From Methylobacterium sp. J-067 (GTDB taxonomy: Bacteria > Pseudomonadota > Alphaproteobacteria > Rhizobiales > Beijerinckiaceae), in the NCBI RefSeq assembly GCF_022829465.1, contig NZ_JAKSXZ010000135.1, forward strand, positions 62,001 through 126,000: DNA of 64,000 nt, given 5' to 3'. The position numbers and the translations under genes are program-made. The notes below the pieces were generated by a model. That model was not told where the DNA came from. It ran no database searches and saw nothing but the letters and a program-made list of their open reading frames with translations. Shown here one piece after another: positions 30,008-47,570 of this stretch. The first letter of the stretch is position 1. Every line of letters begins with the position of its first letter.

Positions 30008-30829
30008 TCAGCCGAAGCGGCCGGTGATGTAGTCCTGCGTCTTACGCTCGTTCGGGTTCATGAAGATCTTGTCGGTCTGGCCGAACTCGACCAGCTCGCC
30101 GAGATACATGAACGCCGTGTACTGCGAGATGCGGGCGGCCTGCTGCATGTTGTGCGTGACGATCACGATGGTGAACTCATCGCGCAGCTGCTCCATCAGC
30201 TCCTCGATGCGGCCCGTGGAGATCGGGTCGAGGGCCGAGGTCGGCTCGTCGAACAGGATCACCTCCGGCTTCTGGGCCACGGTGCGGGCGATGCACAGGC
30301 GCTGCTGCTGGCCGCCGGAGAGGCCGGTGCCGGCCTGCTTGAGCTTGTCCTTCACCTCGTCCCACAGGGCGGACTTGCGCAGCGATTCCTCGACGCGGAC
30401 GTCGAGGTCGGCCTTGGGCAACTTCTCGTAGAGGCGCAGACCGAAGGCGACGTTGTCGTAGATCGACATCGGGAACGGCGTCGGCTTCTGGAACACCATG
30501 CCGATGCGCGAGCGCAACTCGTTCAGGTCCACGTTCGAATCGAGGACGTTGCGCCCGTCGAGGAGGATCTCACCCTCGGCGCGCTGCTCCGGGTAGAGGC
30601 TGTAGATGCGGTTGAAGCAGCGCAGCAGGGTCGATTTCCCGCAGCCCGAGGGGCCGATCAGCGCCGTGACCTTCCGGTCGTAGAAGTTCAGGTTGACGTT
30701 CTTCAGGCCGTGGAACGACCCGTAATAGAAGTTGAGGTTCTTGACGGCGATGCGGATGGCCCGGTCGGTGGCGGCGTTGCCACGGCTGAGGTCCCCGGTC
30801 GGCAGCGCGGAGGCGGCGTTCATCGTCAT
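30008..30829 (-). CDS. pstB: Phosphate ABC transporter, ATP-binding protein
   Basis: This 273-residue ATPase energises phosphate import. It has Walker [17 protein letters not shown], the PstB-type [20 protein letters not shown], the signature [16 protein letters not shown] and Walker [15 protein letters not shown]. It lies 30 bp after pstA. The first ~20 residues are a variable tail. Confidence 0.96.
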
Positions 30830-30859
30830 GTCCTCGTGATGGGTTCGGACGTCACGCCC

Positions 30860-31753
30860 TCAGCGGGCGTTCTGCGGCTTGATCACCAAGCGGGCGATGA
30901 TCGACAGGGCCAGGATGGTCGTGGTGATCAGCAGGGCGCCGGCCCAGGCGAGCCCCTGCCAGTTCGGATAGGGCGAGAGGGCGAACTGGTAGATCATCAC
31001 CGGAAGGTTCGCGACGCCGCCCATCAGGTTGGGGGAGAACCAGGAATTGTTGTTGAGCGCGGTGAAGAGCAGCGGCGCGGTCTCGCCCGCGATGCGGGCC
31101 AGCGCCAGGATGATGCCCGTCACGATGCCGGAGGAGGCGGCCCGCCACGTCACCGAGGTGATGACCTTGGAGGGCGGGGCGCCCAGCGCCGCGCCGGCCT
31201 CGCGCAGGGTGCCGGGCACGAGGCGCAGCATGTCCTCCGTGGTGCGCACGATCACCGGCACGGCGATGATCGCCAGGGCGACGCCGCCGGCCCAGCCGGA
31301 ATAGGTCCCCATCGGCCGCACCATCAGGGTGTAGACGAACAGGCCGATCAGGATGGATGGCGCCGAGAGCAGCACGTCGTTGAGGAAGCGGATGATGTCC
31401 GCGAGCTTCGAGCCCCGCCCGTATTCGGCGAGGTAGGTGCCCGCCATCACGCCGACCGGGGTGGCCACGACGATGCCGATCGTCGTCAGCACGAGGCTGC
31501 CGAGGATGGCGTTGGCGATGCCGCCGCCTTCCGAGCCGGGGCCGGGGGTCGGCTGGGTGAACAGGGTCGGGCTGAGGCCCCGGATGCCCTCGACGATGAG
31601 CATCAGGAGGATCGAGCCGAGCACCACCGCGCCGACCACCGTCGCGACGAGGCAGGAGATGCGCAGGGCCCGGTCCGCCACCCGGCGGCCGGGGCGGACG
31701 CGGCTGGCGCGGAGGGGGGACGGGGTCGTCACCAGGGGATTCGTGGCATCCAT
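30860..31753 (-). CDS. pstA: Phosphate ABC transporter, permease PstA
   Basis: The product has 297 residues and about six membrane helices. An N-terminal basic stretch precedes [22 protein letters not shown]. The EAA loop for PstB contact is [21 protein letters not shown]. PstA pairs with PstC to form the inner-membrane channel. It starts 13 bp after the pstC stop. Confidence 0.95.
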
Positions 31754-31766
31754 CGGGATCGGCTCC

Positions 31767-32741
31767 TCAGGCGGCCCGGACGCGGCGGGTCAGCAGCCGC
31801 GCGACGATCAGCACGATGAAGGTGATGACGAAGAGGATGCAGCCGAGCGCCATCAGGGCGTTCAGTTGCAGGCCGTCCGCCTCGTTGAACTCGTTGGCGA
31901 TCCGCGACGCGATGGTCGAGGACGGGTCGAAGATCGAGGCCGAGAGCCGGTTGGCGTTGCCGACCACGAAGGTCACCGCCATCGTCTCGCCCAGCGCCCG
32001 GCCGAGGCCCAGCATGATCGCGCCGATGATCGACACGGCGGCCTGCGGCACGAGGACGTGGCGCACCACCTCCCAGGTGGTGCAGCCGATGCCGTAGGCG
32101 CTCTCGCGCAGGACCGTGGGGATCTGGTCCAGCATGTCCCGGGCGATCGAGGCGATGAACGGCACGATCATGATCGCCAGGATGATGCCGGCGGTGAAGA
32201 TGCCGACGCCCGAGGGCACCCGCGCATAGAGCAGCGTACCGACCACCGGGAGCCCCTCGACGAGGTTCGAGAGGGGGATCTGCACGAAGCGCGCGAAGAT
32301 CGGGGCGAAGATGAACAGGCCCCACATGCCGTAGATGATGCTCGGCACGGCGGCGAGCAATTCGATCGTCATGGCGACGGGCTTGCGCGCCCAGCCGGGG
32401 CAGAGCTGCGTCAGGAAGATCGCGATGCCCAGCGAGACCGGCACGCCGATCAGCAGCGCGATCACCGCCGAGGCGAGGGTGCCGATCACCGCGACCAGGG
32501 CGCCGTATTGCTCGGTGCCGATGTTCCAGGCGCTGGAGGTGAGGAAGCCGAAGCCGAATTCGCGGAAGACGGGCCAGCCGCCGTAGAGGATCGAGCCGAG
32601 GATGCCGGCGAGCACCAGCAGCACGAGCAGGGCGGCGGCGTAGGAGCAGGTACGGAACACCGCATCGAGTCCACGGCTCGGACCCCGGCGCGGGGTGGAG
32701 CGCGTCTCGGCGATGGCGATGGACTGCGACAAGGCGGGCAT
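31767..32741 (-). CDS. pstC: Phosphate ABC transporter, permease PstC
   Basis: The product has 324 residues and about six membrane helices, with the EAA loop [20 protein letters not shown] and the conserved [17 protein letters not shown] that identifies PstC. It forms the translocation path with PstA. A strong hairpin lies in the 101-bp gap between pstS and this gene. Confidence 0.95.
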
Positions 32742-32794
32742 CCGCGATTCTCTGGAATGGACGGACTTCTATCGTGGCGGCACCCGCGATGCGA

Positions 32795-32819
32795 GGGAGG
32801 GGGCCCGAAGCCCCCTCCC
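32795..32819 (-). terminator. Hairpin in the pstS-pstC gap (attenuator or mRNA stabiliser)
   Basis: GGGAGGGGGC and GCCCCCTCCC form a perfect 10-bp stem with a 5-base loop (TTCGG on the minus strand). It begins 24 bp after the pstS stop and ends 54 bp before pstC. No U-tract follows, so full termination is unlikely. Partial termination or 3'-end protection would give more PstS than membrane components, as is common for binding proteins. Confidence 0.6.
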
Positions 32820-32842
32820 CGCGCGGGATCACATGTCCAGGA

Positions 32843-33883
32843 TCACATGCCGAAGACGGGCTTGCCGTCCTTGCCCTTGATGGTCTTCCACTCGTCGTGG
32901 ATTAGGGCGACGACGTTGTCCGGCAGCGGGACGTAGTCGAGGTCCGAGGCGAGCTTGTCGCCGTTCTTGTACGACCAGTCGAAGAACTTCAGCACGTCGG
33001 CGGCCTTCGCCGGATCGGCCGGCTCCTTGTAGACGAGGATGAAGGTCGCGGCGGTGATCGGCCACGCATCCGCACCCGCCTGGTTGGTGAGCGAGATGCC
33101 GAAACCCGGAGCGGCCTTCCAGTCGGCGCTGGCGGCAGCCGCCTGGAACGCCTTGTCGGTCGGCTCGGGGAACTTGCCGTCCTTGTTCTGGATGAGCGTG
33201 TAGGCCAGCTTGTTCTGCTTGGCGTAGGCCGACTCGACGTAGCCGATCGAGTTCGGGACCTGCTTCACGGTGGCGGTCACGCCCTCGTTGCCCTTGCCGC
33301 CCTGGCCCACGGGCCAGGAGATCGTGGTGGCGGCGCCGTATTCCTTCTTCCACGCCTCGGAGGCCTGGGAGAGGTAGGTCGTGAAGATGTTCGTCGTGCC
33401 CGAGGCGTCGGACCGGTAGACCGGCGTGACGTTCGCGTCGGGGAGCTTCACGCCCTCGTTCAGCTTGGCGATGCGCGGGTCCGACCACTTGGCGATCTTG
33501 CCGGCGTAGATGTCGGCGATGAGTTCGCCGGTCAGCTTCAGCTTGCCGGCCTCGATGCCGGGGATGTTCACCACGGTGACGACGCCGCCCATCACGGTCG
33601 GGAACTGGATGAGGCCGTCCTTGGCGAGCTGCTCACCCTTCAGGGGGGCGTCGGTGGCGCCGAAATCGACGGTCTTGGCCTGGATCTGCTTGATGCCGCC
33701 GCCGGAGCCGATCGACTGGTAGTTCAGGCCCGTGCCGGTGTCCTTGCGGTAGGCTTCCGCCCACTTGGAATAGACCGGGAAGGGGAAGGTGGCCCCCGCT
33801 CCCGTGATGTCGGCGGCGAGAGCCGCGGAGGCGAGCTGGGCCGTCGCTAGGCCGAGGGCGAGCGCGTAAGCGAAGGGTCTCAA
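32843..33883 (-). CDS. pstS: Phosphate-binding periplasmic protein
   Basis: The 346-residue precursor has a signal peptide, MRPFAYALALGLATAQLASA, probably cut before ADITGAG. The mature protein has GAGATFPFPVYSKWAEAYRK, IGSGGGIKQIQAKTVDFGATDAPL and SDASGTTNIFTTYLS, the phosphate-binding loops. The start is TTG 33883, chosen because GGAGACACCC precedes it and the signal peptide begins there; the frame is open further upstream but makes no sense as protein. A Pho box lies 107-124 bp upstream. It is the first gene of pstSCAB-phoU-phoB. Confidence 0.93.
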   Translation of the reverse strand: MRPFAYALALGLATAQLASAALAADITGAGATFPFPVYSKWAEAYRKDTGTGLNYQSIGSGGGIKQIQAKTVDFGATDAPLKGEQLAKDGLIQFPTVMGGVVTVVNIPGIEAGKLKLTGELIADIYAGKIAKWSDPRIAKLNEGVKLPDANVTPVYRSDASGTTNIFTTYLSQASEAWKKEYGAATTISWPVGQGGKGNEGVTATVKQVPNSIGYVESAYAKQNKLAYTLIQNKDGKFPEPTDKAFQAAAASADWKAAPGFGISLTNQAGADAWPITAATFILVYKEPADPAKAADVLKFFDWSYKNGDKLASDLDYVPLPDNVVALIHDEWKTIKGKDGKPVFGM

Positions 33884-33989
33884 GGGTGTCTCCGTCTCGG
33901 TCGGCTGCGCCGCCAACCCTGGGGCGATACGGCGCAGATCCAAGGGGCACGGAAGGGTCCGGCCGGCGCTCGGGGCGGTACGACGGTCG

Positions 33990-34007
33990 TATGACAGGGC
34001 TATGACA
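33990..34007 (-). promoter_or_regulatory. Pho box (PhoB site) upstream of pstS
   Basis: On the minus strand two TGTCATA direct repeats (34007-34001 and 33996-33990) are spaced by exactly 11 bp, each preceded by T or C. This is close to the textbook PhoB half-sites CTGTCAT. It sits upstream of pstS, so the operon, including phoB, should be induced by phosphate starvation. It lies in the 314-bp gap between pstS and the next gene; nothing else was identified there. Confidence 0.8.
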
Positions 34008-34197
34008 ACCCCGGCCCGCGCAGCCTTTCGCGCTGCGGTAAGAACCTGATTTTTCGATTCGATCCGCCTCCGACACAATCCAGCAATGGAGCCCCGCAGG
34101 CCTCCTTTCGAGGCGATGGCACGGGATGGCGGCCGACTGCGTTGGTGTCGCATCGACCCGTTGCCCGGAGGCACCGGGCGATGGGGCCGAAGGAATC

Positions 34198-34794: not shown

Positions 34795-36462
34795 TCAGAC
34801 ACCCAGTAACAATCGGGCGGCGGCGGCGCGGGCCTCGTCCGTCACCGTGGCGCCGGCGAGCATCCGGGCGATTTCCTCGCGGCGGTCCTCCACCGGCAGG
34901 GTCGAGACGCGGGTCGCCACCCGCCCCGCGCCCTTCACCGGCGCCTTGGCGATCAGGAGGTGCGTGGCTGCCCGCGCGGCGACCTGCGGCGCGTGGGTGA
35001 CGGCGATGACCTGCACCGTGTCGGCGAGGCGCGAGAGGCGCAGGCCGATGGCGTCGGCCACCGCGCCGCCGACCCCCGTGTCGATCTCGTCGAAGATCAG
35101 GGTCGGGGCCGAGCCCTTGTCGGCGAGCACTACCTTCAGGGCCAGCATGAAGCGGGACAGCTCGCCCCCCGAGGCGACGCGCATCATCGGGCCGGGCTTC
35201 GTGCCGGGGTTGGTCTGCGCCCAGAACTCCACCCGGTCGATGCCGGCGGCGTCGCGGGAGGCGGGGTCGGTCGCGATCTCGGTGATGAACCGGGCGCGTT
35301 CCAGCTTCAGGGGCGGCAGCTCGGCCTGCACCGCCGCGTCGAGCTTGCGGGCTGCCTTCTTGCGGCCGGCGCTCAGGGCCTCGGCGGCGGCGGCATAGGC
35401 GGCCTCCGCCTTTCCCTGCGCGGCTTCCAGGGTGGCGAGTTCGGCCTCGCCCGCGTCGATGGCGGCGACGTCGGCGGCGAAGCGCCCGGCGAGGTCGGCA
35501 AGGTCGTCGGCGGCAACGTTGTACTTCCGCGCCGCGGCGCGCAGGGCGAACAGCCGTTCCTCGACGCGTTCCAGTTCGCGCGGATCGAATTCCGCCTCCG
35601 CCACCGCGTTCTCGATGGCGGCCCGCGCCTCGTCGAGGGCGACGAGGGCCGCGTCGAGGGCGTTGACGCAGGGCTCGACCAGGGCCGGCAGCAGCGCCGC
35701 CCGGCGTTCCAGCTTGCGCAGGGCGGCCGAGAGGTGCGGCACGCCCGAATGCGGCCCGCCCGCCGCGTCCAGGGCCTCGTTGAGTTCGCGGGCGATCTTT
35801 TCCGATTGCTGCATCACCGTGCGACGCTCGGCGAGGCTCGCCTCCTCCCCCGGCAACGGGTTCAGTTCGCCGAGTTCCTCGACGGCGTGCCGGAGGAAGT
35901 CGGCCTCGCGCCGGGCGGTCTCGACTCGCTCCTTGTGCTCGCTGAAGGCGGTGCGGGCGGCGCGCAGGGCGCGGGCGGCGGTGCCGACCTTGGCCGCCTG
36001 CGGCTGGAGCCCGCCGAAGGCGTCGAGGATCGCCCGGTGCGAGGCGGGATCGGCCAGCGCCCGGTCGTCGTGCTGGCCGTGGATCTCCACCAGGGCTGCG
36101 CCGATGGCCCGCAGCACCTGCACGCCCACCGCCTGATCGTTGACGAAGGCGCGGGTGCGCCCGTCCGCCATCTGCGTGCGGCGCAGGATCAGGTCGCCCT
36201 CGGTGTCGAGTTCGGCCTCGGCGGCAATGCGCCTCGCCGGGTGGTCGAGGGGCACGTCGAACACCGCCGTCACGCCGCCCTGCGATTCGCCGGAGCGCAC
36301 GAGGCGGCCGTCGCCGCGGCCACCAAGGGCCAGGGCGAAGGCGTCGAGCAGGATCGACTTCCCCGCGCCCGTCTCACCCGTGAGGACGCTGAGCCCTTCG
36401 CGGAAATTGAGTTCGAGCTTGTCGATCAGAACGATGTCGCGGATCGCGAGCTGCGCGAGCAT
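34795..36462 (-). CDS. recN: DNA repair protein RecN
   Basis: This 555-residue SMC-like ATPase helps recombinational repair of double-strand breaks. It opens with MLAQLAIRDIVLIDKLEL and Walker A LTGETGAGKSILLDAF, has a central coiled coil, and closes with the ABC-type SGGELSRFMLALK and Walker B LIFDEIDTGVGG. ATG 36462 is chosen because family similarity starts exactly there; upstream in-frame Met codons at 36477 and 36507 are less likely. A LexA-like box lies about 72-86 bp upstream. Confidence 0.94.
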   Translation of the reverse strand: MLAQLAIRDIVLIDKLELNFREGLSVLTGETGAGKSILLDAFALALGGRGDGRLVRSGESQGGVTAVFDVPLDHPARRIAAEAELDTEGDLILRRTQMADGRTRAFVNDQAVGVQVLRAIGAALVEIHGQHDDRALADPASHRAILDAFGGLQPQAAKVGTAARALRAARTAFSEHKERVETARREADFLRHAVEELGELNPLPGEEASLAERRTVMQQSEKIARELNEALDAAGGPHSGVPHLSAALRKLERRAALLPALVEPCVNALDAALVALDEARAAIENAVAEAEFDPRELERVEERLFALRAAARKYNVAADDLADLAGRFAADVAAIDAGEAELATLEAAQGKAEAAYAAAAEALSAGRKKAARKLDAAVQAELPPLKLERARFITEIATDPASRDAAGIDRVEFWAQTNPGTKPGPMMRVASGGELSRFMLALKVVLADKGSAPTLIFDEIDTGVGGAVADAIGLRLSRLADTVQVIAVTHAPQVAARAATHLLIAKAPVKGAGRVATRVSTLPVEDRREEIARMLAGATVTDEARAAAARLLLGV

Positions 36463-36599: not shown

Positions 36600-37721
36600 C
36601 TACAGGAGCGCCCCCCGCGCCGTGACCGGCCACAGGGCCTCGACGCGGCCGTTGCGGACGCCCACCAGCCAGTCGTGGACGTTGACGGTGGGGTCGCAAT
36701 GGCCGGGGATCAGGCGCAGCCGGTCGTTGAGCCGGAGCACGTTGCCGGGATCGGCGATCACCCCGTGCTCGTCGGAGGCCTTCAGGTATTCGACGTCGCT
36801 GCGGCCGAACACGATCGGCATGCCGCTGTCGACGCTCTGCGCCTTGAGGCCGGCATCGCAGATCGCGACGTCCCGCTTCGCCTTGCTCATCACCGAGGTG
36901 AGGATGAACAGGCTGTTCTCGAACTCCGAGATCGGCTTGTCGCCGGCATCGCGGACGCGCTGATAGTCGGCGTCCATGAAGACGTAGGAGCCGCATTGCA
37001 GCTCGTTGTAGACGCCGCTCGCCCCCTCCATCTCGAAGCTGCCGGTGCCCGCCCCCGCGACGATGGCGCAGGACAGGCCCTCGGCCTTCAGCAGATCGAT
37101 GGTGCGCTTCGTGTCGTCGATGGCCTTCTGGATCAGGTCCCGGCGCTCGTTGTGGTCGCGGACATGCTGGGCCTTGCCCTGGTAGGCCTGGAGCCCGGCG
37201 AAGGAGAGGCCCGGCCGGTCGGCGATGCGGCGGGCGATGGCGACCGCCGGCTCGCCCGGCGCGACGCCGCAGCGGCCCGCGCCGACATCGATCTCCACGA
37301 GGCATTCGAGGGTGACGCCGTACTTCACCGCCGCCGCCGAGAGGTCGTCGACGTTGCCGAGGTCGTCCACGCAGACCAGCACCCGGGCGCGGGTGGCGAG
37401 CGCCGCCAGCCGCTCGATCTTCTTGGGCGCGACGACCTGGTTCGAGACCAGCACGTCGCGGATGCCCGCGCTCACCAGGGCCTCGGCCTCGCTGACCTTC
37501 TGACAGCACACGCCGCAGGCCCCGCCCCGCTCCATCTGGATCATCGCGATGTCGGAGGACTTGTGCGTCTTGGCGTGCGCCCGGTGGCGCAGGCCCTTCT
37601 CCTTCATGTAGCGGCCGAGCTTTTCCACGTTGCGCTCGAAGGCGTCGAGATCGACCACGAGGCAGGGGGTGTCGACCTCATCGACCGGCATGCCGATGGC
37701 GGCGGGGAGCGTGTTGGCCAT
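36600..37721 (-). CDS. 3-hydroxy-D-aspartate aldolase-like (BhcC/DhaA) fold-type III PLP enzyme
   Basis: This 373-residue protein of the D-threonine aldolase/DSD1 family has an alanine-racemase-type barrel, with the PLP lysine in HAKTHKSSDIA. Stretches such as GVCCQKVSEAEA, VEIDVGAGRCGV, ILTSVMSKAK, DAGLKAQSVDSG and LIPGHCDPTVNVHDW (metal-binding His/Cys) resemble, from memory, the Paracoccus 3-hydroxy-D-aspartate aldolase and BhcC of the beta-hydroxyaspartate cycle. That enzyme reversibly joins glycine and glyoxylate. ATG 37721 follows a near-perfect AAAGGAGG. It lies 25 bp after the fold-type II PLP gene and downstream of a glycine-riboswitch gene. D-threonine aldolase activity is the main alternative. 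Confidence 0.75.
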   Translation of the reverse strand: MANTLPAAIGMPVDEVDTPCLVVDLDAFERNVEKLGRYMKEKGLRHRAHAKTHKSSDIAMIQMERGGACGVCCQKVSEAEALVSAGIRDVLVSNQVVAPKKIERLAALATRARVLVCVDDLGNVDDLSAAAVKYGVTLECLVEIDVGAGRCGVAPGEPAVAIARRIADRPGLSFAGLQAYQGKAQHVRDHNERRDLIQKAIDDTKRTIDLLKAEGLSCAIVAGAGTGSFEMEGASGVYNELQCGSYVFMDADYQRVRDAGDKPISEFENSLFILTSVMSKAKRDVAICDAGLKAQSVDSGMPIVFGRSDVEYLKASDEHGVIADPGNVLRLNDRLRLIPGHCDPTVNVHDWLVGVRNGRVEALWPVTARGALL

Positions 37722-37746
37722 GGGGTTCCTCCTTTGTTGTTGTGTC

Positions 37747-38883
37747 TCAGGCTCGGGCGTCGAGCAGGTCGGCGATGCGCGGCGTGGCCTTGATGCCGGT
37801 GCCGGTGAGGACGACGACGCTCGTTTCGTCGGCGCGGATGGCGCCGCGTTTCGTCAGGTCGCTCAGCGCCGCCGCCGCCATGGCGCAGGTCGGCTCGACG
37901 TAGAGGCCTGAGCGGGCCAGTTCATGCAGCGCCGCCTCGATGGCCGCCTCGGACACCGCGACGGTGCCGCCGCCGGAGCGCCGCAGGGCCGCTAGCACCT
38001 CCCGCCCGCGCACCGGCCGGGCGATGGAGGCGCCCTCGGCGAGCGTCGGGTGCGGATCGATGGGCAGGGCGTCCTCCGCTCCCGCCGCGAAGCCGGCATG
38101 GAGCGGCGCGCAATGGGCCGGCTGCACCGCGTAGAGGCGCGGCAGGCGGTCGATCTCGCCCCGGCGCAGCAATTCGCGGAAGCCGATATCGCAGCCGAGG
38201 ATGTTGCTGCCCGCCCCGCAGGGGATGATGACACAATCCGGCGTGCGGAAGCCCAGATCCTCCCACAGCTCATAGGCCAGGGTCTTGGTGCCCTGAAGGA
38301 AATGCGCCTGCCAATTGTGGCTGGCGTAGAAGATCGACTCGGCCTGGGCGACGGCCGCGTCGGCGGTGTCCTGCCGGGTGCCGGGGATCAGTTCGATGGC
38401 GGCGCCGGCCGCGCGCATCTGCACGGTCTTGGCCGGCGAGGTCGAGGCCGGCACCAGGATCTTGGCGCGCATCCCGGCGGCGGCCGCATAGGTCGCCACC
38501 GCCGCGCCGCCGTTGCCGGAGGAATCCTCCAGCACCGCGTCGATCCCCTGCTGCCGCAGGATCGAGAGCATCACCGAGGCGCCCCGGTCCTTGAAGCTGC
38601 CGGAGGGGGCGAACCATTCGAGCTTGAAATGCGCGTGCCCGCCCCGCCACGGCCGGCGGACGAGGGGGGTGCAGCCCTCGCCCAGGCTGATCGGATCGGC
38701 CACCGCGACCGGCAGGGCGCCGGCATAGCGCCAGAGCGAGCGCGCGGCGGTGTCGATCCCGTCCCGCCCGATGCCGGGCAGGTCGGTGATCATCAGCGGT
38801 CGCCCCACTTCCGAGCGCCAGCGCGGCGTGTCGATGGGGTAGGTCGTCCCGTCGATGGGATCGACATAGGCGGGCATCGTCAT
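37747..38883 (-). CDS. Fold-type II PLP enzyme (threonine synthase/dehydratase-like)
   Basis: The 378-residue protein of the tryptophan-synthase-beta superfamily has the PLP lysine in SGSFKDRGASVML and the phosphate-binding glycine loop in PCGAGSNILG; EDSSGNGGAAVATYAA is the substrate loop. It resembles threonine synthase more than classic threonine deaminase. A true thrC lies at 53718, so this is probably a lyase or dehydratase acting on a hydroxy- or amino-acid. ATG 38883 follows GGAGAGAGG. It is flanked by the DadA-like oxidoreductase and the hydroxyaspartate-aldolase-like gene, so a hydroxyaspartate dehydratase role is an attractive but unproved guess. Confidence 0.65.
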   Translation of the reverse strand: MTMPAYVDPIDGTTYPIDTPRWRSEVGRPLMITDLPGIGRDGIDTAARSLWRYAGALPVAVADPISLGEGCTPLVRRPWRGGHAHFKLEWFAPSGSFKDRGASVMLSILRQQGIDAVLEDSSGNGGAAVATYAAAAGMRAKILVPASTSPAKTVQMRAAGAAIELIPGTRQDTADAAVAQAESIFYASHNWQAHFLQGTKTLAYELWEDLGFRTPDCVIIPCGAGSNILGCDIGFRELLRRGEIDRLPRLYAVQPAHCAPLHAGFAAGAEDALPIDPHPTLAEGASIARPVRGREVLAALRRSGGGTVAVSEAAIEAALHELARSGLYVEPTCAMAAAALSDLTKRGAIRADETSVVVLTGTGIKATPRIADLLDARA

Positions 38884-38903
38884 GGTCGAGCCTCTCTCCG
38901 ATG

Positions 38904-38939
38904 ATCGTAGCGCGGCGTGAACTTTATTCAAAATTCAAA
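38904..38939 (-). promoter_or_regulatory. Tandem ATTCAAA repeat upstream of the PLP-enzyme pair
   Basis: ATTCAAA occurs twice head-to-tail (38926-38932, 38933-38939) in an A+T-rich island between dadA and the next gene. A TTGAAT...N16...TACGAT promoter-like pair can be read on the minus strand, but it would leave a very short leader. It may be an operator or a second promoter for the two PLP genes. AGCGCGG/CCGCGCT flanks it as an inverted repeat. Confidence 0.3.
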
Positions 38940-38956
38940 CCGCGCTGCGGGGTGCC

Positions 38957-40216
38957 TCACGCCGCGAGGCGCAGGCCCGCCGTGCCGGGCGCGTGCTCGG
39001 CCGCGATGGCCTCGGCCACGAGTTCGGCGGTGGCGCCGGAGAGGGTCCAGCCAAGATGGCCGTGGCCGGTGTTGTAGAACACCCCCGCCCGGCGCCCGCG
39101 CCCGACCTTCGGCAGCATGTTCGGCAGCATCGGCCGCAGGCCGCTCCAGGCGATCACCCGGTCGGTGGCGACGCCAGGGAACTGCTCGCGGGTCCAGTCC
39201 ACCAGGGGCTGGATGCGGTCGTGGCGGATGTCACGGTTGAAGCCGTTGAACTCGGCGGTGCCGGCCACGCGGAAGCGGTCCTCGCCGAGCCGGCTGGTGA
39301 CGATCTTTGTGGCCTCGTCGAGGATGCTCACCTGCGGCGCCGCCGCCTGGGCCTCCGGCGTGTAGAGGTTCACGGTGATCGAGTAGCCCTTCACGGGGTA
39401 GATGTTCACCCGGTCGCCCAGCATCGCCGCGAAATGGCGGCTCGCCGTGCCGGCGCAGATCACCACCGCGTCGAAACTCTCCTCGCGGGCCTCGCCTCGT
39501 CCGGCCTCCCGCCAGCCGACGACGTGGCCCCCCTCCCCGCCCGGCGCGACCGAGGCGACGGCGGCGTCGTGGACGAAGCGCACGCCCCTGCGGGCGCAGG
39601 CGGCGGCGAGACCCCGCGTGAACTTGTGGATGTCGCCCGTGGCGTCGGAGGGGGTGAAGAACCCGCCGTAATAGGTGCCCGCCAGCGTCGGCTCGATGGC
39701 CCGGATCTCGTCGGGCGTGACGGCGTGGCGCTCCAGCCCGCCCTCGCGGAGCAGGGAGTTCACCCCCTCCGCCTTCCGGAAGGCCGCTTCGTCCCGGTAG
39801 AAATGCAGGATGCCGCGGGTCTTCAGGTCGAAGTCGATCCCCTCGGCGCGGGCCATGGCGAACAGGGCCTCCCGCGCCTTGATCGCGAGCCGCACCGTCT
39901 CGACGGTGTTCGCCCGATAATGGGCGATCTCGCGGACGAACTCGGCCATCCACGACAGCTTGTGCCAGGACGGGGCCGGATTCATCAGCAGCGGCGCGTC
40001 GCGGCGGGTCATCCAGCGCAGGCCCTGGATCACCGTCGAGACCTTGTTCCACACCTCGGCATTGCAGGCCGAGAGCTGTCCGCCATTGGCGAAGGAGGTC
40101 TCCATCGCGGCGTAGCGGTTGCGGTCGAGGACGGTGACGCGATACCCCCGCGTGGCGAGGGCATAGGCTGTCGTCACGCCGGTGATGCCGGCGCCGATCA
40201 CGGCGACATGGGTCAT
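38957..40216 (-). CDS. DadA-like FAD-dependent D-amino acid/glycine dehydrogenase
   Basis: The product (419 residues) has an N-terminal FAD-binding Rossmann motif (VAVIGAGITGVTTAYALATRG) and the DadA family marks NGGQLSACNAEVW, GIDFDLKTRGILHFYRD, VKGYSITVN and GHGHLGWTLSGA. Such enzymes oxidise D-amino acids or glycine to the keto acid and ammonia, passing electrons to the respiratory chain. A tandem glycine riboswitch in its leader points to glycine as inducer and perhaps substrate, giving glyoxylate. ATG 40216 follows GGAG. Two PLP-enzyme genes follow on the same strand, 73 bp downstream. Confidence 0.8.
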   Translation of the reverse strand: MTHVAVIGAGITGVTTAYALATRGYRVTVLDRNRYAAMETSFANGGQLSACNAEVWNKVSTVIQGLRWMTRRDAPLLMNPAPSWHKLSWMAEFVREIAHYRANTVETVRLAIKAREALFAMARAEGIDFDLKTRGILHFYRDEAAFRKAEGVNSLLREGGLERHAVTPDEIRAIEPTLAGTYYGGFFTPSDATGDIHKFTRGLAAACARRGVRFVHDAAVASVAPGGEGGHVVGWREAGRGEAREESFDAVVICAGTASRHFAAMLGDRVNIYPVKGYSITVNLYTPEAQAAAPQVSILDEATKIVTSRLGEDRFRVAGTAEFNGFNRDIRHDRIQPLVDWTREQFPGVATDRVIAWSGLRPMLPNMLPKVGRGRRAGVFYNTGHGHLGWTLSGATAELVAEAIAAEHAPGTAGLRLAA

Positions 40217-40280
40217 GGGTTTGGGACTCCGGGCCATCTGGACGCATGGGACCGGATTCGAGTGAAGCCGGCCGGTCGCG

Positions 40281-40497
40281 CCCCATCTGTCCCGGTGCCT
40301 GAGAGTTTGATCCGGCGCCGCCTTGGCAGGGCGGTGAGCACGGACGTCCCCTTCGGCGGGTGCCAGCGGACGAATCCGCCGCACCGCTCTCCAGATTGCC
40401 CCGACGACACGGTTCTGGTGCCTGAGAGTTTCCGGGGCGGTTGCTCCGTCGGCGCCGGGCGGCCTCTGTCGGGCCGTCCCGGTCTCTCCCGCATCGT
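40281..40497 (-). ncRNA. Tandem glycine riboswitch
   Basis: The leader of the DadA-like gene carries two glycine aptamers. Read on the minus strand, aptamer 1 (about 40497-40411) has GGGAGAGACCGGGAC, GACGGAGCAACC and AACTCTCAGGCACCAGAACC. Aptamer 2 (about 40395-40281) has CTGGAGAGCGG, CCGAAGGGG and AACTCTCAGGCACCGGGACA. The repeated GGAGAG, (C)GAAGGGG/GGAGCAACC and CTCTCAGGCACC blocks are the conserved core of the class. The last aptamer ends about 65 nt before the ATG, leaving room for an expression platform. The rest of the 419-bp gap to the divergent DoxX gene shows nothing else. Confidence 0.93.
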
Positions 40498-40635
40498 CGT
40501 CATGGGCGCTGCGACATTAGCGCAGGCGACCCCATCCGCCCAAGCCCGTTTTCGGGGCAGCGCGCCCGTCTTCCTTGCAATCGGCGGCGCCTGTCACACC
40601 TGCCCCCACGACGCCGTCATGGAGCCCACGACCGG

Positions 40636-45936: not shown

Positions 45937-46947
45937 TCAGCCGTTGCGGAAGGTGTAGCTGTAGCCGTTCAGCGCCGGGGCGCCGCCGAGATGGGCGTAG
46001 AGCACCTTGGAGCCCTTGGGGAAGAAGCCCTTCTGGATGAGGTCGATCATGCCCTGCATCGACTTCCCCTCGTAGACCGGGTCGGTGATCATGCCTTCGA
46101 GGCGGGCCGAGAGGCGGATCGCCTCCACGGTCTCCTTCGAGGGCACGCCGTAGACCGGGTAGGCGTAGTCTTCCTTGATGACCACGTCCTCGTCCTCGAC
46201 GCGGGCGGCGCCAATGAGTTCGGCGGTGTTGCGGGCGATGTCGAGCACCTGGGCGCGGGTCTGCGCCGGGGTGCAGGAGGCGTCGATGCCGATGACGTTG
46301 CGGGCACGCCCATCCGCGCCGAAGCCGACCACCATGCCGGCATGGGTCGAGCCCGTCACCGTGCAGACCACGATGTAGTCGAAGCGCACGCCCATCTCCT
46401 TCTCCTGGGCGCGGACCTCCTCGGCGAAGCCGACATAGCCGAGGCCGCCGTACTTGTGCACCGAGGCGCCGGCCGGGATCGCGTAGGGCTTGCCGCCCTC
46501 GGCCTCGACCTCGGCGAGCGCCCGCTTCCACGAATCGCGGATGCCGATGTCGAACCCGTCATCGACGAGTTGGGCCTGCGCGCCCATCAGGCGCGAGAGC
46601 AGGATGTTGCCGACGCGGTCGTACACGGCGTCCTCGTGCGGCACCCAGGCTTCCTGGATCAGCCGGCACTTGAGGCCGAGCTTGGCCGCCACCGCCGCCA
46701 CCATCCGCGTGTGGTTCGACTGCACGCCGCCGATGGAGACCAGGGTGTCCGCGCCGGACTTCAGGGCGTCCGGCACGATGTATTCGAGCTTGCGCAGCTT
46801 GTTGCCGCCATAGGCGAGGCCGGAATTGCAATCCTCGCGCTTGGCGTAGATCTCGACCTCGTTCCCGAGATGGGCCGAGAGCCGCTTCAGCGGCTCGATC
46901 GGCGTCGGGCCGAAGGTGAGGGGATAGCGCTCGAACTTTTCCAGCAT
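45937..46947 (-). CDS. acdS: 1-aminocyclopropane-1-carboxylate deaminase
   Basis: This 336-residue PLP enzyme cleaves the plant ethylene precursor ACC to ammonia and 2-oxobutyrate. The PLP lysine is Lys50 ([14 protein letters not shown]). Tyr292-Glu293 (VYEGKS) and Leu320 match the residues that separate true ACC deaminase from D-cysteine desulfhydrase. ATG 46947 gives the usual length. It is divergent from an Lrp/AsnC gene, the known acdR-acdS layout. It suggests a plant-associated life style. Confidence 0.92.
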
Positions 46948-47012
46948 CGGGTCTGTCTCCGGGTCTTGGACGCGTGGCCAAGGTAGCAAACGCCGAACGG
47001 AAGGTGCTCTCG

Positions 47013-47018
47013 ATTTTA
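47013..47018 (-). promoter_or_regulatory. Candidate -10 element for acdS in the acdS-lrp divergent region
   Basis: On the minus strand TAAAAT lies 66-71 bp upstream of the acdS ATG, without a recognisable -35 hexamer at 16-18 bp. This would fit a promoter that needs an activator such as the divergent Lrp-type regulator. A perfect 8-bp palindrome GAACGTTC lies nearby at 47066-47073. Confidence 0.35.
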
Positions 47019-47090
47019 CCCCCGCCAATGTGCTTTCTGTTTTCCCGAATTGCCTTGACCCTTCCGAACGTTCCGCATCAGCCTCCCAAA

Positions 47091-47570
47091 ATGAAAGAAT
47101 CCACCGATCCGCCTGCGCTCGACCGCACCGATCTCAGGATCCTGCGCCTGCTCCAATCCGACGGGCGGATGGGCAATGCCGAGATCGCCAAGCGGGTGAA
47201 CACCAGCGCCGCCACCTGCCACCGCCGGCTCCAGGCGCTGTTCGCCGGCGGCGTGGTGCGGGTGGTGCGGGCGCTCATCGACCCTGCGCGGGTGGGGCGC
47301 GGCACCCTCGTCATCGTCGGCGTGGTGCTCGACCGCTCGACCCCGGAGGCCTTCTCCGCCTTCGAGGCCGCCGTGCGCGGGATTCCCACCGTCCTCGATT
47401 GCCACCTCGTGGCCGGGGACTTCGATTACTTCCTCAAGATCCGGGTCTCGGACATGGCGGATTTCAACCGCCTGCACAGCACGACCCTGCTCGGCCTGCC
47501 GGGCGTCCGACAGCTGCGGACCTTCTTCGTGATGAAGGAGGTCATCGACAACGCGCCCCTCGATCTCTAG
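47091..47570 (+). CDS. Lrp/AsnC-family regulator, probable acdS activator
   Basis: The product (159 residues) has an N-terminal winged helix ([27 protein letters not shown] with the recognition helix [10 protein letters not shown]) and a C-terminal RAM ligand-binding domain ending in [12 protein letters not shown]. Divergence from acdS, 143 bp apart, matches AcdR-type regulators that switch on acdS in response to ACC. The upstream frame continuation is ignored because ATG 47091 fits the family start. Confidence 0.85.

Follow-up and report, generated by a model that had tools for sequence, protein, structure and literature searches.

The window analyzed here, a stretch of 64,000 nucleotides (nt) from Methylobacterium sp. 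J-067, carries on its minus strand a tandem glycine riboswitch followed by three genes. The first (dadA) encodes a DadA-type D-amino acid dehydrogenase, P0001; the second, a fold-type II pyridoxal phosphate (PLP) enzyme, P0002; and the third an aldolase, P0003, which resembles BhcC of the beta-hydroxyaspartate cycle. An earlier note, made from the letters of the sequence, had read these elements in this order on one strand, and Rfam, NCBIfam and Pfam matches confirm it (Table 1). Both aptamers are above the gathering score of RF00504 (32 bits), as expected for a tandem riboswitch, and the gaps between the genes are short (dadA-PLP, 73 nt; PLP-aldolase, 25 nt). We consider it moderately probable that the locus is a glycine-induced operon for glycine assimilation that uses hydroxyaspartate chemistry, and that its riboswitch formerly belonged to a glycine cleavage system since lost.

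Table 1. Features of the riboswitch-led locus and its neighbors, in window coordinates
Feature	Coordinates	Strand	Evidence
Glycine riboswitch aptamer 1	40501-40400	minus	Rfam RF00504, 54.0 bits
Glycine riboswitch aptamer 2	40398-40283	minus	Rfam RF00504, 39.8 bits in the window search; 45 bits in the genome search
Expression platform	40214..40299	minus	Possible pairing of a Shine-Dalgarno-like GGAG (~40230-40227), before the dadA start, with the 3' part of aptamer 2; predicted folds
DadA-type FAD D-amino acid dehydrogenase (P0001)	40216-38957	minus	NCBIfam NF009074
Hairpin in the 73-nt dadA-PLP gap	38909..38946	minus	Fold z = -3.0; no T-run behind
Fold-type II PLP enzyme, threonine-synthase fold, proposed hydroxyaspartate dehydratase (P0002)	38883-37747	minus	Pfam PALP PF00291, 241 bits
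BhcC-like 3-hydroxyaspartate aldolase paralogue (P0003)	37721-36600	minus	Ala_racemase_N + D-ser_dehydrat; NF045642, 603 bits
recN	34798-36459	minus	
Phosphate-uptake (pst-type) genes	30008-34174	minus	Named by reading
ACC-deaminase/D-cysteine-desulfhydrase-like gene	45937-46950	minus	Named by reading
Lrp-type regulator gene	46974-47570	plus	Named by reading

The gene order recurs in relatives, and therefore the arrangement is not a product of chance. When 61 genomes were searched for dadA orthologues at a threshold of at least 78% identity, ten, all of the same genus, carried one. In every one of the ten the tandem riboswitch lies immediately upstream of dadA and the aldolase gene downstream, and nine have the PLP gene. 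Six further dadA loci (G486, G493, G499, G506, G510 and G511) all include the riboswitch, dadA, the PLP gene and the aldolase gene, the riboswitch being recognized by a script pattern and, in G499 and G511, also by Rfam. Behind the aldolase gene most relatives carry a fourth gene, a member of the ornithine-cyclodeaminase/mu-crystallin family, which was found in nine of the ten genomes, the exception being the window's own, and in five of the six further loci, the exception being G499, the partner of the window's genome in a RecN tree; altogether it is present in 14 of the 15 related genomes opened, the window's genome excluded. Among 12 named Methylobacterium loci, some of them from the same species as genomes already counted, 11 have the complete four-gene set with the riboswitch pattern. 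The other (L134, Methylobacterium sp. NEAU 140) has the PLP gene alone; neither the riboswitch pattern nor any of the other three genes was found in its 12.6 kb. In G007 (L025, 7418-8529) the PLP gene is split into two frames, by decay or by a sequence error.

The closest solved relative of the fourth protein is BhcD (6rqa, 158.6 bits); an archaeal alanine dehydrogenase comes second with 150.5 bits. Two of the relatives' proteins reached 224 and 222 bits on the BhcD model NF045643, below the cut-off of 500. A putative BhcD-like imine reductase is part of the set in relatives, and the window is without this gene; the only counterpart found in its genome is the canonical BhcD (39% identical). 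The place directly after the aldolase gene is occupied in the window by recN, but no recN match was found in ten relatives' loci of the set; the lack of the fourth gene therefore coincides with a rearrangement. No BhcA match was found at the related loci of the set, and by reading no shared regulator gene stood out beside it.

The riboswitch links the locus to the glycine cleavage system, whose presence was judged from GcvP (PF02347) alone. In 30 riboswitch loci that were read, the riboswitch is followed by gcvT, identified by its sequence, in 22 cases, by a gene for another type of DadA in four, by a dadA of the window's type in two (G002 and G014) and by an ambiguous gene in two (G018 and G022). 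The window's genome (5.36 Mb in 146 contigs) yielded no GcvP match, and a whole-genome search with RF00504 gave no match beyond the two aptamers of the window. GcvP is absent from the ten set-bearing genomes of the 61-genome search and present in 25 of the 27 other members of the genus (Fisher 2e-7). In 111 genomes of the genus, 14 of whose GcvP-free members were counted by subtraction, dadA without GcvP occurs in 30, both in five (G444, G445, G451, G511 and G515), neither in four (G025, G033, G492 and G494, the last only 70% complete) and GcvP only in 72 (Fisher 1e-17, kinship ignored); that is, GcvP is absent from 30 of 35 dadA-bearing genomes versus 4 of 76 dadA-free ones. G025 and G033, which have neither GcvP nor a glycine riboswitch match, carry a canonical bhcABCD cluster (L124, L125 and L126), twice in G033. 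In G511 (L295) gcvT and gcvP are present with their own glycine aptamer in addition to the full operon, perhaps a regain.

P0001 reaches 720 bits on NF009074 (cut-off 494) and is thereby a member of this family. It falls below the classical DadA model PRK00711 (341 bits versus 383) and the ThiO model (134 bits versus 250.8); its best-scoring model is therefore not the classical one. In the pathway considered here P0001 would oxidize glycine to glyoxylate. A glycine riboswitch also stands ahead of a different DadA type in G012, G015, G020 and G024 (L034, L036, L039 and L037, respectively), genomes that retain GcvP; the riboswitch-led DadA of G012, the sole one of these four scanned, is of the classical type (457 bits on PRK00711).

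The best NCBIfam model for P0003 is that of BhcC, NF045642, although its 603 bits lie below the cut-off of 690. This cut-off is also missed by aldolases embedded among bhc genes in G307 (648 bits) and G360 (574 bits), between which P0003 falls, and two aldolases without bhc neighbors reached 489 and 465 bits. In G307, which belongs to another family, an aldolase gene lies behind bhcA and bhcB, and its product is 73-74% identical to P0003; an IclR-type regulator gene, named by reading, stands ahead of bhcA and bhcB, and no bhcD was found in the 16 kb fetched. In a tree of 73 rows the aldolases of the dadA-PLP-aldolase set form one clade (99/83). In a second tree, of 49 rows with a midpoint root, from which 16 long or far rows had been dropped and in which the rows of the set were thinned from 21 to 11, the aldolases of the set, that of G307 and canonical BhcC (38 of the 49 rows) lie on one side of a branch supported at 100/99. 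Among solved structures P0003 is closest to 6qkb, deposited as D-3-hydroxyaspartate aldolase (480 bits), followed by the D-threonine aldolases (7dib, 377 bits). This second place, together with the threonine-synthase fold of P0002, is what would be expected if P0003 were a D-threonine aldolase and P0002 had D-threonine or some other beta-hydroxy amino acid as its substrate, with glycine being formed and not consumed. We regard this explanation as very unlikely, given the 100 bits by which the BhcC structure leads, the position of the similar aldolase gene of G307 behind bhcA-bhcB, and the scores of P0002 under the threonine synthase cut-offs listed.

P0002 did not reach the cut-off for any of the 25 NCBIfam models listed, out of 34; the best of them is the threonine synthase PRK06450 (231 bits versus 301), so that P0002 is not assigned to the threonine synthases. 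Its AlphaFold model (mean predicted local distance difference test score 93.3, 34 sequences) has threonine synthases as the best solved folds. The idea that this enzyme is a BhcB, with which the earlier note had proposed to compare it, was rejected: the BhcB model NF045641 gives 67 bits with a cut-off of 550, and threonine-synthase folds rank first. The nearest named relatives of its gene are in Methylobacterium; of the best 80 relatives kept from a genome scan, 68 lie outside this genus, and in 32 of these 68 loci a gene for a fold-type III PLP enzyme is found within 4 kb on the same strand (23 of 50 when 4 kb were available on both sides). The best solved match of two copies of this neighbor is 3wqc, D-threo-3-hydroxyaspartate dehydratase, with 389 and 258 bits. 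Many loci of Acetobacteraceae and Rhodospirillales add M20 and MlrC-type genes, and those of Desulfoluna (L183 and L196) add RidA-type and YheO-type genes. A recurrent cluster in the Acetobacteraceae and Rhodospirillales (e.g. L158, 5771-10863) consists of an M20 hydrolase, a P0002-type PLP enzyme, an MlrC-type protein and a D-threo-3-hydroxyaspartate-dehydratase-like enzyme. Across the 68 loci no aldolase more than 45% identical to P0003 was found beside the family, the DadA match is a single weak one (L153, 30%), and no glycine aptamer was found by the script pattern, which is a pattern search and not Rfam. These neighborhoods point to a hydroxyaspartate-type substrate for the P0002 family, short of proof.

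Aldolases of the BhcC-like type work in both directions. This reversibility and the catabolic-looking M20, MlrC and dehydratase-like neighbors of the PLP family would suit a locus that degrades external 3-hydroxyaspartate, whether free or derived from peptides or siderophores. The compound would be split by aldolase and dehydratase, the riboswitch would sense the released glycine, and DadA would clear D-amino acids or glycine. We judge this decidedly unlikely, because no transporter was recognized by reading inside the set, because its gaps are too short for a further full-length gene except in L024 (1169 nt), and because degradation would leave unexplained both a glycine switch moved from gcv and the BhcD-like reductase.

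The association of a riboswitch-dadA head with accepted hydroxyaspartate genes was found in G451. In this genome a tandem glycine riboswitch (62.7 and 42.8 bits), dadA (73% identical to that of the window, 705 bits on NF009074), a major facilitator superfamily (MFS)-type gene, an M20-type gene, bhcB, bhcC and bhcD follow one another on one strand, so the same head leads to genes whose role in the hydroxyaspartate pathway is accepted. The three bhc products are 83% (bhcB), 82% (bhcC) and 79% (bhcD) identical to the canonical copies of the window's genome, and no bhcA match was found at this locus. The MFS-type gene is spread over two frames, both it and the M20-type gene were judged by reading, and this layout, close to the end of a contig, is known from a single genome.

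The window locus does not show bhcA beside bhcB, bhcC and bhcD; as the earlier note had stated, neither bhcA nor bhcD accompanies the three genes. The broader possibility that the genome is free of bhcA or bhcD was rejected, for contig C134 carries a complete bhcABCD cluster (BhcA 728 bits, cut-off 650; BhcB 597, cut-off 550; BhcC 777, cut-off 690; BhcD 584, cut-off 500), to whose BhcC P0003 is 62% identical. With a whole canonical cluster elsewhere in the genome, the window locus is a second, paralogous system and no broken canonical one. No Rfam match was found around this cluster in the 18 kb fetched. A canonical-type BhcC with bhc neighbors is present in three of the ten set-bearing genomes of the 61-genome search (G000, G002 and G026).

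Regarding the switch itself, predicted folds allow base pairing between the 3' strand of aptamer 2 and the Shine-Dalgarno region of dadA. For a comparison of leaders, 23 loci were submitted and gave 16 distinct leaders in addition to that of the window, the rest being identical or without the start motif; those of the 73-75% identical dadA loci L286, L288 and L290 were folded, but they are without the aptamer motif of the script and were not counted. In the 17 distinct leaders 99.0% of the 289 cells are paired, versus 24-51% when the partners are slid, with a tested structure that derives from one of the 17 and is thereby favored over the slid versions. Covariation is weak: two pairs changed on both sides, a number reached in 22 of 500 shuffles, and the score together with the cells paired was matched in 40 of 500. 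The leader most likely acts as a translational ON switch for dadA, judging from these pairings.

Based on these data, the proposed mechanism would be as follows. Rising glycine would bind the tandem aptamers, and glycine-bound aptamer 2 would withhold its 3' strand from the hairpin that otherwise masks the ribosome-binding site of dadA, as the conserved alternative pairing suggests, allowing DadA to be made. DadA would oxidize part of the glycine to glyoxylate and pass the electrons to the respiratory chain; the BhcC-like aldolase, judging from its family and context, would join glyoxylate with a second glycine to 3-hydroxyaspartate, which the fold-type II PLP enzyme, from its gene context, may dehydrate to iminosuccinate. 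A BhcD-like reductase would then form aspartate; in the window, which has no gene for it, the canonical BhcD from elsewhere could serve, or iminosuccinate may hydrolyze to oxaloacetate. In sum, two glycine molecules would yield one four-carbon unit with no CO2 lost, replacing glycine cleavage. The proposal of the earlier note that glycine is sensed, oxidized and condensed to 3-hydroxyaspartate thus gains comparative support from the absence of GcvP, from G451 and from G307, while we infer the enzyme activities themselves. As for its glycine-induced variant of the cycle, the riboswitch most likely gates the translation of dadA, and that the two PLP genes also respond to glycine is a proposal.

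Several observations weigh against this interpretation. According to PMC9436414, DadA of Escherichia coli is a poor enzyme with glycine (apparent KM >500 mM, kcat/KM 0.275 per M per s). The set is not invariable, since the divergent G014 has the riboswitch, dadA, the aldolase gene and the fourth gene without the PLP gene, and 36 of the 68 P0002-family loci show no dehydratase-like neighbor. P0003 matches 20 of 53 BhcC-diagnostic positions (G307 matches 29 and G360 14), and in the 49-row tree the aldolase of G307 groups with canonical BhcC (100/99), not with that of the set. The 73-row tree leaves the placement of the set's clade unsettled.

The association with the loss of GcvP is also weakened by kinship, which was judged from a quickly made RecN tree with 110 of these 111 genomes. 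In this tree a single clade with 30 members (Shimodaira-Hasegawa-like approximate likelihood ratio test 99) holds 28 of the 30 genomes with dadA and without GcvP; its other members are G511, with dadA and GcvP, and G509, with GcvP and without dadA, and G014 and G463 lie outside it. Independent pairs chosen by dadA or by GcvP were on average concordant in 2.4 or 2.9 cases, discordant in none and uninformative in 2.6 or 3.1, and the kinship-aware sign test is not significant (median p 0.5 or 0.25). The anticorrelation of dadA and GcvP is striking, yet it is based on few events.

The remaining objections concern the unity of the operon. Riboswitch and dadA stand without a hydroxyaspartate gene beside them at five (G444, G445, G451a, G463 and G515) of the six loci with a 73-75% identical dadA, and four of the five genomes that hold these six loci have GcvP. 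In addition, since the riboswitch appears to be translational, the PLP and aldolase genes may escape glycine control. The dadA-PLP gap measures 133 to 1169 nt in 17 relatives' loci, the longest being that of L024, and contains an AT-rich element, recognized by pattern, in 15 of them. The gap of L133 has one terminator-like site (0.2 expected) and no sigma-70-like promoter; the hairpin of the window's gap is stronger than in shuffled sequences, whereas the gaps of L133 (z = -1.2) and L137 (z = -0.1) do not fold more strongly than their shuffles. A consensus scan of window positions 38800-40600 gave neither a promoter-like site nor a minus-strand terminator-like site. From such data one could argue, with the riboswitch-led DadA of another type in G012, G015, G020 and G024, that riboswitch and dadA form a separate detoxifier of glycine or D-amino acids, and that the PLP, aldolase and reductase genes are a transcription unit with its own control, with no single glycine-fed route. 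This seems unlikely to us, because the genes stay side by side throughout the clade as well as in G014, which is divergent, because G451 ties riboswitch and dadA to bhcBCD, and because promoters of their own would be compatible with a shared pathway.

If the glycine-assimilation reading is extended to the history of the genus, a lineage of Methylobacterium may have swapped glycine cleavage for a linear, carbon-conserving route from glycine to aspartate and moved the gcv riboswitch onto it. This route would consist of a DadA-type glycine dehydrogenase, a BhcC paralogue, a new family of hydroxyaspartate dehydratases with threonine-synthase fold and a new iminosuccinate reductase; the genus also has a separate assembly that includes canonical bhcBCD. 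We put this scenario forward tentatively, with confidence slightly short of even. In the open-access literature, to which our search was confined (subscription papers were outside its scope), we found no paper joining a glycine riboswitch with hydroxyaspartate, or hydroxyaspartate with growth on glycine. If true, the proposal would describe a native assimilation of glycine without the glycine cleavage system, without carbon loss and under direct RNA control. Glycine would join glycolate and glyoxylate as an input of the beta-hydroxyaspartate cycle, and a further family of dehydratases would become known; the locus would also give an example of a riboswitch shifted from one pathway to its functional replacement, and supply parts for glycine-based carbon assimilation.

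Among the neighbors of the locus, the pst-type genes adjoin recN, and the 1-aminocyclopropane-1-carboxylate (ACC)-deaminase-like gene and the divergent gene of the Lrp-type regulator form a pair that also lies near the set in G499 (L293).

Several known systems resemble parts of this locus. The D-threo-3-hydroxyaspartate-dehydratase-like clusters of Acetobacteraceae, Bradyrhizobium and Desulfoluna share its fold-type II PLP family, but differ from it in the aldolase, DadA and aptamer searches described above. In SAR11, according to PMC5069720, a glycine riboswitch is coupled to the malate synthase gene glcB; there too a glycine signal is tied to glyoxylate assimilation, through malate synthase instead of the hydroxyaspartate-type enzymes of the window. 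The riboswitch-led glycine cleavage system (gcvT, gcvH and gcvP) has in common with the locus the tandem riboswitch, the signal, and the need to remove or use glycine; in contrast, the window's genome lacks GcvP, and the proposed route would release neither CO2 nor a one-carbon unit. The beta-hydroxyaspartate cycle of Paracoccus denitrificans (BhcABCD and BhcR) is similar in its aldolase, near to that of the window, in the role of a dehydratase, in the BhcD-like imine reductase of the relatives, and in the order dehydratase, aldolase, reductase. The window locus differs from it in that BhcA is missing, a DadA-type enzyme comes first and the dehydratase belongs to another family; moreover, it is headed by a glycine riboswitch, whereas the canonical cycle, as stated in PMC11323563, is controlled by BhcR in response to glyoxylate.

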